DNA from: Nitrosococcus halophilus Nc 4
GTDB lineage: Bacteria; Pseudomonadota; Gammaproteobacteria; Nitrosococcales; Nitrosococcaceae
Assembly (NCBI RefSeq): GCF_000024725.1
Contig: NC_013960.1
Location: 2,714,001-2,778,000, forward strand
Length of the DNA stretch: 64,000 nt
Direction: 5' to 3'
Positions 9,859 through 12,475 of this stretch are shown here, piece by piece. Position numbers and translations under genes: made by a program. Numbering within the stretch: the first letter of the stretch is position 1; each line of letters starts with the position of its first letter. Below the pieces are notes generated by a model, which saw only the letters and a list, made by a program, of their open reading frames with translations, had not been told where the DNA came from and did not search any database.

Positions 9859-9870
9859 CTCATTCTGGCC

Positions 9871-10062
9871 ATGATCCGGCTGTTCAGGCCCCAGATCGAG
9901 CAACTATTGCGCCATCGCGATGAGATAATTAACAAGGCTCACATCGAAAGGCCCGATGACGATGTGCTTGAAGATCGTGACCTGGAGATCACCGGTTATT
10001 TACCGATCAATGTGGATTGCTGGCTCGAAACGTTACGTGCTCAGTTGGCGAGACTAATATGA
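9871..10062 (+). CDS. Hypothetical 63-residue protein
   Basis: Begins 12 bases after the DUF1244 stop on the same strand. The product is acidic and soluble (LLRHRDEIINKAHIERPDDD, later DVLEDRDLEITGYLPINVDC) and lacks membrane segments or motifs I recognise. The ribosome site is weak. It could be a real small gene at the end of the operon or a chance reading frame. Confidence 0.4.
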   Translation: MIRLFRPQIEQLLRHRDEIINKAHIERPDDDVLEDRDLEITGYLPINVDCWLETLRAQLARLI

Positions 10063-10122
10063 TAAGTCTTTTTCACTCTGGCTGAGTATTTTAGTCGGTT
10101 CAGGGGGCTACCTAAGTCTATT

Positions 10123-10866
10123 TTATCTGATTTCTATCGCTATCAGGGTAATATCGTCATGTGCCATAGACCCGCCCGTATGCCGACGGACGGCGGTGAG
10201 AACGGCTTGTTTCAGTTGGGGTAAATTCTCATCGCCAACCTGTCCTAATATGGCCTGCAGTCGCTCCTCACCAAAGGGTTGGCCGTCCGTGCCCGGGGCT
10301 TCAATGAGGCCATCAGTATACAGAAGCAGGCGATCACCTGAGGCAAGTAGGAGCTGCTCCTGGTCATAGGGTATGCCGTCCATCACGCCCAAGGGTAAGT
10401 TGGCTGGTTCCGGACGTGGCTTTAGTCTTACGGGTCGCCACGTCTTATCTTCTCGCCGTCGAAGCAATAGCGGTGGATGTCCAGCATAGGAAATATAGAG
10501 GTTGGTGTCGGCGAGATAGAAGCTGGCAATCGCCGCTGTCGTCATCGCCTTAAGCCCACATTCGGTGACCACCCGCTGATTCAGCTCGACAAGGAGACTG
10601 TTACTATCGAGACTATCCATCCGCTTTGCCAGCCCCTCGTAAAGCCACCGGCTTATGCGACTGACGGCTTCGCCATGTCCAACCACATCGGCTACAACGA
10701 TACGGGTAAGGATATCGGCTCCACAGACGCTGAAGTAATAGATGTCGCCGCCCTGGTCTCCATCAGCTGCGCTTGAGTAGAGACTGGCGGTCAGCGCATT
10801 GGTGCATAAATCCTGGTCCGCAGCTTGGATTCCGCCCCAGATCTCCGCACAATGAATGCGATGCAT
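10123..10866 (-). CDS. SpoIIE/PP2C-type serine phosphatase
   Basis: Stand-alone PPM-type phosphatase of 247 residues from the ATG at 10864-10866, chosen because AAGGAGAT lies five bases upstream; a longer frame starting at 10938 lacks this. Metal-binding and fold motifs: VVADVVGHGEAVSR, YAGHPPLLL, LLLYTDGLIEA and HDDITLIAI. Such proteins act in partner-switching cascades on anti-sigma-factor antagonists or in two-component outputs. No antagonist, anti-sigma kinase or receiver gene is adjacent, so its target is unknown. It is divergent from the HvfA-like peptide gene. Confidence 0.9.
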   Translation of the reverse strand: MHRIHCAEIWGGIQAADQDLCTNALTASLYSSAADGDQGGDIYYFSVCGADILTRIVVADVVGHGEAVSRISRWLYEGLAKRMDSLDSNSLLVELNQRVVTECGLKAMTTAAIASFYLADTNLYISYAGHPPLLLRRREDKTWRPVRLKPRPEPANLPLGVMDGIPYDQEQLLLASGDRLLLYTDGLIEAPGTDGQPFGEERLQAILGQVGDENLPQLKQAVLTAVRRHTGGSMAHDDITLIAIEIR

Positions 10867-10952
10867 ATTTATCTCCTTGCTAGCTAGGTCCTGATTGAGG
10901 CCTAGCTTATTTAAAATGAGCCTTGCCTCTACTGCCAAATTATTTTTTGTCT

Positions 10953-10970
10953 ACGTGCCATGGGGCACGT
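10953..10970. promoter_or_regulatory. Inverted repeat in the divergent intergenic region
   Basis: ACGTGCC and GGCACGT are separated by ATGG, in the 249-bp gap between the phosphatase gene and the small peptide gene. A dimeric regulator serving both genes could bind here; no regulator is identified. Confidence 0.4.
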
Positions 10971-11051
10971 TACAGTGGCATAGCCTGTGATCAGCGGACT
11001 CTGTTATACCCCAGAGTGATGAAACCTTATGTCATTGGATACTTAATGGAT

Positions 11052-11057
11052 TATAAT
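11052..11057 (+). promoter_or_regulatory. Candidate -10 box for the small peptide gene
   Basis: A consensus TATAAT 58 bases before the start codon. No good -35 box is visible at 16-18 bp spacing, so activation by another factor is possible. Confidence 0.35.
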
Positions 11058-11115
11058 GACTGTCCCGGGGGCACTCACATTCACTAATATAAGAAGCTGA
11101 TAATTGAGGAGAATA

Positions 11116-11454
11116 ATGATGCCTAAGAAACATAAACTTTCTTCCTTGTCTGTAGCAGTGGGGACTGTATTTACGGCTGGGATGCTGACGAGTGGGGCTG
11201 CCAGCGCTGAAAGCAACCCTTTTGGTTACGCTGACTTATCAAGTGGTTATATGGTTGCCGCTGGAGAGGGCGCAAAAGGCGAGGGTGAAGGGAGTTGCGG
11301 CGGCAAGAGGAAGGCTGAAGGTGAAGGAAACTGCGGCGGTAAAAAGAAGGCTGAAGGCGAAGGAAGTTGTGGCGGCAAGAAAGAACAGGGCCAAGGGCGC
11401 AAGCAGGGACAAGAAGGCAAATGCGGCGAAGGCAAATGTGGGGGGAATATGTAA
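11116..11454 (+). CDS. Secreted Cys/Gly/Lys-rich low-complexity peptide, HvfA-like RiPP precursor
   Basis: 112 residues. Residues 1-31 form a Sec-type signal peptide ending GAASA. After a short spacer come three 12-residue units (56-67, 68-79, 80-91) of the form EGEGSCGGKxKA, then a Gln/Gly/Lys linker and the tail EGKCGEGKCGG. Cysteines are at 61, 73, 85, 103 and 108. The EGKCG tail is the hallmark of the HvfA/bufferin-like precursors that DUF692 (MNIO) enzymes modify to copper-binding thiooxazole peptides. No DUF692 or DUF2063 partner is in this window, so it is an orphan here. GAGGAG lies upstream; ATG 11119 is an alternative start. A strong terminator follows. Confidence 0.75.
   Translation: MMPKKHKLSSLSVAVGTVFTAGMLTSGAASAESNPFGYADLSSGYMVAAGEGAKGEGEGSCGGKRKAEGEGNCGGKKKAEGEGSCGGKKEQGQGRKQGQEGKCGEGKCGGNM
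11281..11388 (+). repeat. Three 36-bp tandem units inside the peptide gene
   Basis: In-frame imperfect repeats coding for the 12-residue unit with one cysteine each. Copy number could change by slippage between strains. Confidence 0.8.
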
Positions 11455-11507
11455 AGTAGCTCAGGTAGTGGTTGTGCTACCTATCCGGCGAGTCAATGCG
11501 GTAACTA

Positions 11508-11535
11508 AAAACGGGCCCCTTGGAGGGCCCGTTTT
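11508..11535 (+). terminator. Rho-independent terminator
   Basis: A perfect 11-bp stem, AAAACGGGCCC against GGGCCCGTTTT, with a 6-nt loop, 53 bases after the peptide gene stop. The A/T ends make it potentially bidirectional. Confidence 0.93.
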
Positions 11536-11619
11536 CATATTCGCCTTCTAGCTCCATCCAGGGGACGGTTCCAACCGCTTATTTTATTCCCAGGAAATCT
11601 TAATTGACTGAGACAGAAT

Positions 11620-11710: not shown

Positions 11711-12475
11711 GTGGATTTGGCCACCCTGATTGGCTTAATTAGTAGCTTTGGGGTTGTGGCTGGGGCCATTTTATTAGGCTCTAGCGTGCTCGTTTTTTTC
11801 AATCCACCTTCTATTTTAATCGTCTTAGGGGGAACCATAGCCGTAGTGCTCATGAAGTTCTCCCTTAGCCAGTTTTTAGGTTCCTTCAAGGTGGCCATGA
11901 AGGCTTTTGTGTATAAGGCCGAGAAGCCGGAAGAAATTATTAAACAGGCCTTAGAGATGGCGAATACAGCCCGAAAGGATGGGTTGTTAGCGTTAGAAAG
12001 TTGGGACATCAAGAATGAATTCATGAAAAAAGGGGTAACCTTGCTAGTGGACGGTCACGAACCCGAAATGGTGCGCCGGGTGTTGATGACTGAGCTGCGG
12101 CAGACCCTAGAACGCCATGATCTGGGGCAAAAAATCTTTAGGGCCATCGGCGATGTGGCACCCGCTATGGGGATGATTGGCACTTTGATTGGTCTCGTAC
12201 AGATGCTTTCTTCTATGGATGACCCGAAAAAAATTGGCCCGGCTATGGCCGTTGCCCTGCTGACCACGCTCTATGGTGCCATGATTGCCAATATGGTGGC
12301 ACTGCCGTTTGCCGACAAACTCGCCCTGCGCAGTAATGAAGAACGGCTTAACCGCTTCATAATCATCGAAAGCATCCTGTCGATTCAACAGGGCCACAAC
12401 CCGCGGGTATTGGAAGAGCTGTTGCTAACCTTTATGCCAGGTTCTAAGCGCCATAATAATAATGGAGAAAAGTAA
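11711..12475 (+). CDS. motA: Flagellar motor stator protein MotA/PomA
   Basis: Stator subunit that conducts H+ or Na+ with MotB/PomB and turns the flagellar rotor. 254 residues: membrane segments near 4-25 and 33-52, a cytoplasmic loop with the charged residues that meet FliG (MVRRVLMTELRQTLERHD), then two segments (GDVAPAMGMIGTLIGLVQML and the stretch MAVALLTTLYGAMIANMVAL). The lack of an extra N-terminal stretch and the LATLIGL start resemble PomA, the sodium type, but the ion cannot be decided from this. GTG start after GGAGG. motB follows after 16 bp. Confidence 0.93.
   Translation: MDLATLIGLISSFGVVAGAILLGSSVLVFFNPPSILIVLGGTIAVVLMKFSLSQFLGSFKVAMKAFVYKAEKPEEIIKQALEMANTARKDGLLALESWDIKNEFMKKGVTLLVDGHEPEMVRRVLMTELRQTLERHDLGQKIFRAIGDVAPAMGMIGTLIGLVQMLSSMDDPKKIGPAMAVALLTTLYGAMIANMVALPFADKLALRSNEERLNRFIIIESILSIQQGHNPRVLEELLLTFMPGSKRHNNNGEK

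Follow-up and report, generated by a model that had tools for sequence, protein, structure and literature searches.

The closest described relatives of the system examined here are exported copper peptides made with an MNIO (DUF692) enzyme and a DUF2063 partner. For FonABC, both 5-thiooxazole formation and copper binding have been demonstrated, and the same work ties Lys-Cys substrates to Arg15, Arg16, Asp249 and Phe250 of FonB, residues conserved in Lys-Cys MNIOs (PMC13097082). A further report defines the Buf_EGKCG class and describes stand-alone precursors, for which it suggests either modification by an MNIO encoded elsewhere or no modification at all, with 67 of 2583 Buf_EGKCG genomes lacking MNIO genes (PMC12452194). 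Stand-alone EGKCG precursors are already known, and the system that we describe, whose precursor gene lies in a stretch of 64,000 nucleotides from Nitrosococcus halophilus Nc 4 (the window), adds one member. We consider it probable that the window encodes an HvfA-type precursor on which an HvfBC pair encoded far away acts in trans, yielding a copper chelator with 5-thiooxazoles. Because ammonia oxidation depends on copper enzymes, copper handling in this host, which we take to be an ammonia oxidizer, is of physiological interest.

The precursor gene lies at positions 11116 to 11454 of the window on the forward strand, with an ATG at 11116, a stop codon at 11452 to 11454 and an open frame of 112 amino acids. 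Read by eye from the translation, the N terminus (KKHK, a hydrophobic stretch, and ASA before ESNPF) forms a Sec-type signal sequence, as the initial annotation of this DNA had claimed; it is followed by the leader block NPFGYADLSSGYMVAA, three 12-residue repeats (EGEGSCGG, EGEGNCGG and EGEGSCGG) and an EGKCGEGKCGG tail. Tandem-repeat analysis recovers the three repeats as 36-bp units at 11276 to 11381 (+), in agreement with the open reading frame and the three Cys repeats annotated initially. All five cysteines sit within EGxCG motifs, with x being S, N, S, K and K, compared with a maximum of two such motifs when the full-length protein was shuffled 200,000 times and of three when only the residues after position 31 were shuffled. 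Since this count is far above that of the shuffles and the leader is conserved, a low-complexity artefact was dismissed as the source of the motifs. A frame in another phase (11192 to 11551, +) was set aside, being devoid of HvfA-family features. Directly 5′ of the ATG is a GAGGAG stretch, and a pattern scan gives a σ70-like promoter match (10 of 12 positions) at 11029 to 11057 (+), although the four σ70-like sites seen near the precursor compare with 3.8 expected by chance in the region. The gene had also been credited with its own terminator: a strong hairpin at 11508 to 11535 (+; −20 kcal/mol, z −3.1) fits this claim, but its T run is paired inside the stem and a simple terminator scan has no listing for it, so that it is best described as a possible terminator.

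Family models alone place the protein at the border of the HvfA family. The NCBIfam model NF050137 scores 16.2 bits against the precursor by hmmscan, with a cut-off of 19.5 bits, and in a six-frame search it gives 20.0 bits for the precursor and 22.6 bits with in-frame neighbors, both flagged as over the cut-off; a Pfam search of the protein matched no family. The comparative evidence is stronger than the family-model score. Among 64 precursor open reading frames gathered from the order and the class, the window protein shares both the overall layout and the NPF...LSSGYM leader block, and precursor-like matches, by similarity to the window protein, occur in 32 of 38 relatives. The NPF...LSxGYM block after the signal sequence, which we take as a trait of HvfA, Buf_EGKCG and captophorin precursors, was noticed in the present analysis and does not come from a published description. 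Judged by sequence, then, the window protein belongs with the HvfA/Buf_EGKCG (captophorin) precursors, which upholds the earlier HvfA-like assignment on the strength of the EGxCG repeats and the shared leader.

The MNIO and DUF2063 enzymes were said to be absent from the window, and this is correct: the genome (two contigs, 4,145,260 bases) contains a single DUF692 match (362 bits) and a single DUF2063 match (99 bits), both outside it. For the same reason, the term orphan, given to the precursor in the initial annotation, fits the window but not the genome. The genome search which that annotation had proposed thus ends with one gene of each family, adjacent to each other, and not with a genome lacking both a DUF692 protein and an HvfA match, the outcome it had named as damaging. 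The two genes lie at C2:2786615-2788220 on the minus strand with open frames, about 61 kb from the precursor on the same chromosome and 8.6 kb past the window end. Their best solved relatives are 3BWW for the MNIO (E 3.7e-77) and 3DEE for the DUF2063 protein (E 2.8e-11). Beside the pair there is no recognizable precursor and no DoxX gene, and a six-frame search of the genome found no second EGxCG-type precursor. A Buf1 precursor was rejected as the real substrate of the MNIO, the best DUF2282 match in the genome reaching 11.5 bits against a cut-off of 22.4 bits; the argument against a Buf2-type precursor comes from the MNIO residues. A search by eye for a promoter motif common to the precursor and enzyme loci gave nothing above chance.

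The MNIO itself carries the residues expected for this class of substrate, with GLGLRR and LERDF corresponding to the RR...ERDF pattern typical of EGKCG-modifying MNIOs. The same two motifs are present in each of the 15 MNIOs of the order that were inspected and have no precursor beside them, and in 28 of 30 class MNIOs located beside HvfA-like genes, the exceptions being L203 (KR) and L202 (DL). Five loci of the order (L101, L102, L105, L114 and L115) hold a second MNIO adjoined by other Cys-rich precursors, and these enzymes have different signature residues, RT...ERDD in three and RS...EWD in two. In a tree of 52 MNIOs, an EGKCG-type clade of 46 (support 100/100) includes the enzyme of this genome, whose position within the clade is left ambiguous, and long branches among the other types are flagged; the residue and tree counts exclude L211 as well as the weak second match of G010, L120. 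Taken together with the lack of a recognizable precursor beside the lone MNIO, the EGKCG-type residues favor modification in trans, an option already raised in the initial annotation.

We infer the action of the HvfBC pair on the window peptide, its chemistry, its export and its role with copper from sequence comparison and from the published systems. The Sec signal sequence of the precursor probably also serves as its recognition leader; in the Oxazolin system, HvfA without its signal sequence is hardly modified (PMC13419390). The DUF2063 partner (HvfC) would bind the precursor, after which the single MNIO (HvfB), which shares with HvfC a two-gene operon on the opposite strand some 61 kb from the precursor, would oxidize the cysteines of the five EGxCG motifs. 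Each x-Cys pair would become a 5-thiooxazole with the loss of four hydrogens per cysteine, predicting a mass decrease of about 20 Da over five sites, and the exported peptide may chelate copper in the periplasm or outside the cell.

The separation of precursor and enzymes is not peculiar to this genome. Among 39 genomes of the order (our own and 38 relatives), precursor and MNIO occur together in the same 33 and are both missing from the other six. In 10 of the 33, both genes are on one contig, with the nearest MNIO 49 to 523 kb away; in the remaining 23 they are on different contigs. No MNIO is found in the precursor neighborhood of the window or in those of 19 relatives, compared to 32 of 40 sampled precursor loci of the class with an MNIO within a few kilobases (Fisher p 1.6e-9, relatedness ignored). 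The 40 class loci were hand-picked from the best of the matches listed, with several contig-end matches skipped and a lower match from G403 (L226) added, and the count of 32 includes one adjacent MNIO of another type (L209) and one truncated MNIO (L211). The split arrangement is thus common to the precursor-positive genomes of the order, whose main comparison family includes Methylophaga. The joint presence and absence reflects few independent events (this genus and the reduced genome G009) in counts dominated by one related family, so that the perfect concordance is suggestive and not a strong statistic.

Beyond the order, among 369 genomes of the class, a precursor match occurs in 107, an MNIO match in 222 and both in 103. 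One of the genomes without an MNIO match, G174, is nearly complete and has two HvfA-like precursor loci (L223 and L224). Seen from the enzyme side, the best 80 named MNIO relatives include 53 with an HvfA-like open reading frame within the fetched flanks and 27 with none, of which 11 show the SIMPL/eda context known from the order. A looser look at 19 of these 27 revealed no precursor-like open reading frame, though some of the loci are cut off by the end of a contig. Thus hvfBC pairs without a precursor also exist outside the order. One of these 19 loci comes from another ammonia oxidizer, Nitrosomonas ureae (L241), where an hvfBC-like pair with an MNIO 71% identical to ours has no recognizable EGxCG precursor nearby.

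The surroundings of the precursor bear on its origin. In the relatives of the main comparison family, DoxX (18 of 19), MsrP-like (19 of 19) and MsrQ-like (19 of 19) genes come after the precursor, and a divergent σ factor (18 of 19) accompanies it; gene labels such as SIMPL, eda, edd, rhodanese, MsrQ, σ and anti-σ were assigned by eye, and the Pfam check of DoxX and the molybdopterin domain covered a single locus. The precursor of L131 is present, though the motif filter had missed it. In the window, no doxX or msrPQ-like genes follow the precursor: the next gene is motA (11711 to 12475), and the divergent neighbor, occupying the place of the relatives' σ factor, is a SpoIIE-type PP2C phosphatase (10123 to 10866, −), in line with the motA gene and divergent phosphatase annotated initially. 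The phosphatase was rejected as a recurrent partner, since a scan of 88 loci matched nothing but its own open reading frame. What the window retains is DUF1244 and the precursor, the rest being lost or never present. The DUF1244 gene (PF06844; 9613 to 9858, +), whose small product contains a CRNC motif, is found upstream of the precursor in all 33 precursor-positive genomes of the order, always co-directional with it and at a distance of 439 to 2514 bp, whereas none of the 40 class precursor loci has it; genes farther upstream vary between genomes. A functional link between DUF1244 and the precursor is possible. Directly after DUF1244 lies an open reading frame (9871 to 10062, +) matching only the last 46 of the 201 DUF6969 positions in Pfam, probably a gene remnant at the border of an insertion or deletion.

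These observations also weigh on the idea that the precursor was acquired horizontally and resembles the relatives' locus in position by chance. Such an origin would suit the absence of the precursor, together with the MNIO, from all three congeners examined, and also the ambiguous placement of the MNIO within its clade and its closest named relatives, which include Nitrosomonas and unclassified Gammaproteobacteria at 68 to 71% identity. Yet an accidental likeness is hard to reconcile with the order-wide placement of DUF1244, a gene that is single-copy in 34 of the 39 genomes, and we regard this origin as improbable. In the closest congener, with 97% identity in MotA and 96% in a ketoacyl synthase, about 86 bp replace window positions 9869 to 11570 and DUF1244 stands directly before motA, while the alignment at the enzyme locus ends 6 bp before the end of hvfC; both parts are thus absent at once.

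Alternatively, and as the second option of the initial annotation had it, the peptide could work unmodified, as a secreted Cys-repeat protein binding metal through free thiols, with HvfBC serving something else or nothing. Lysine precedes cysteine at only two of its five sites, compared with 129 of 142 sites in the other precursors of the order and, for the precursors of the class, 339 of 352, and among the 64 precursors only that of L226 has a lower share (1 of 5). Moreover, the three repeat sites are spaced 12 residues apart, which speaks against modification given that FonBC modified a minimal substrate with two repeats and not one with a single repeat (PMC13097082). The enzymes are unlinked to the precursor, an arrangement for which the Buf_EGKCG report allows that the peptide might stay unmodified (PMC12452194), and 4 of the 107 precursor-positive class genomes have no MNIO match. 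However, FonBC accepted Ala, Arg and Thr in place of Lys in vitro (PMC13097082), and at L226, L251 and L298 precursors rich in EGSCG or EGNCG directly precede an MNIO gene, which together indicate that sites lacking Lys need not block modification. An unmodified peptide would also leave a lone MNIO with EGKCG-type residues in a genome offering it no other EGxCG-type precursor, and the joint presence or absence of precursor and MNIO in 39 of 39 genomes would have no ready place; we therefore hold this reading to be quite improbable. Very unlikely, finally, is a decaying remnant of a pathway being lost in the genus: although both parts are missing from the three congeners, some 86 bp replace the locus in the nearest one, a truncated DUF6969 frame adjoins and doxX/msrPQ-like genes are absent, the reading frame is intact in the precursor as in both enzyme genes, every Cys is still in an EGxCG motif and the MNIO keeps its signature residues.

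If the precursor is indeed modified in trans from the remote hvfBC locus, the order as a whole might hold a stable two-locus system, in which a general HvfBC pair is kept apart from its substrate gene and acts on it in trans, and the precursor is under separate control together with DUF1244, which would then be an as-yet-unrecognized component of EGKCG-peptide systems. We offer this extension tentatively and think it rather doubtful; were it true, one enzyme pair could serve more than one substrate.

Among known systems, this one resembles Oxazolin (HvfA/HvfB/HvfC/HvfX) of nontypeable Haemophilus influenzae, with which it shares the signal sequence, EGKCG-type Cys repeats, an MNIO and a DUF2063 partner. 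However, the Oxazolin genes share a single operon that includes a DoxX-like gene (PMC13419390), whereas here the precursor stands alone, neither locus has a DoxX gene beside it, and three of the five precursor sites are EG(S/N)CG. Fontiphorin and the captophorins likewise have an EGxCG core, an MNIO with RR and DF and a DUF2063 partner without doxX, but fonABC is one cluster with Lys-Cys sites, and the chemistry, established there (PMC13097082), is predicted here. The bufferins Buf1 and Buf2 (DUF2282; 6/12-Cys) are also Sec-exported copper peptides dependent on MNIO and DUF2063 proteins; they differ from the present system in precursor motifs and MNIO residues, and no DUF2282 match in this genome is over threshold. 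The Buf_EGKCG precursors without an adjoining MNIO share the stand-alone layout and show that adjacency to the MNIO, though usual in the family, does not define it, and modification from a separate MNIO locus has already been suggested for them in print; the text consulted includes no case from Nitrosococcus or Methylophaga and no order-wide conserved split (PMC12452194), and among the matches listed in our literature search no paper treats either genus together with these peptides or enzymes. With precursor locus, MNIO and DUF2063 gene each present once, matching residues and no competing DUF2282 precursor, this genome offers a clean test of the question, raised in PMC12452194, of whether stand-alone precursors are modified from another locus, and its peptide, three of whose five sites depart from the family's Lys, tests the tolerance of the sites as well.
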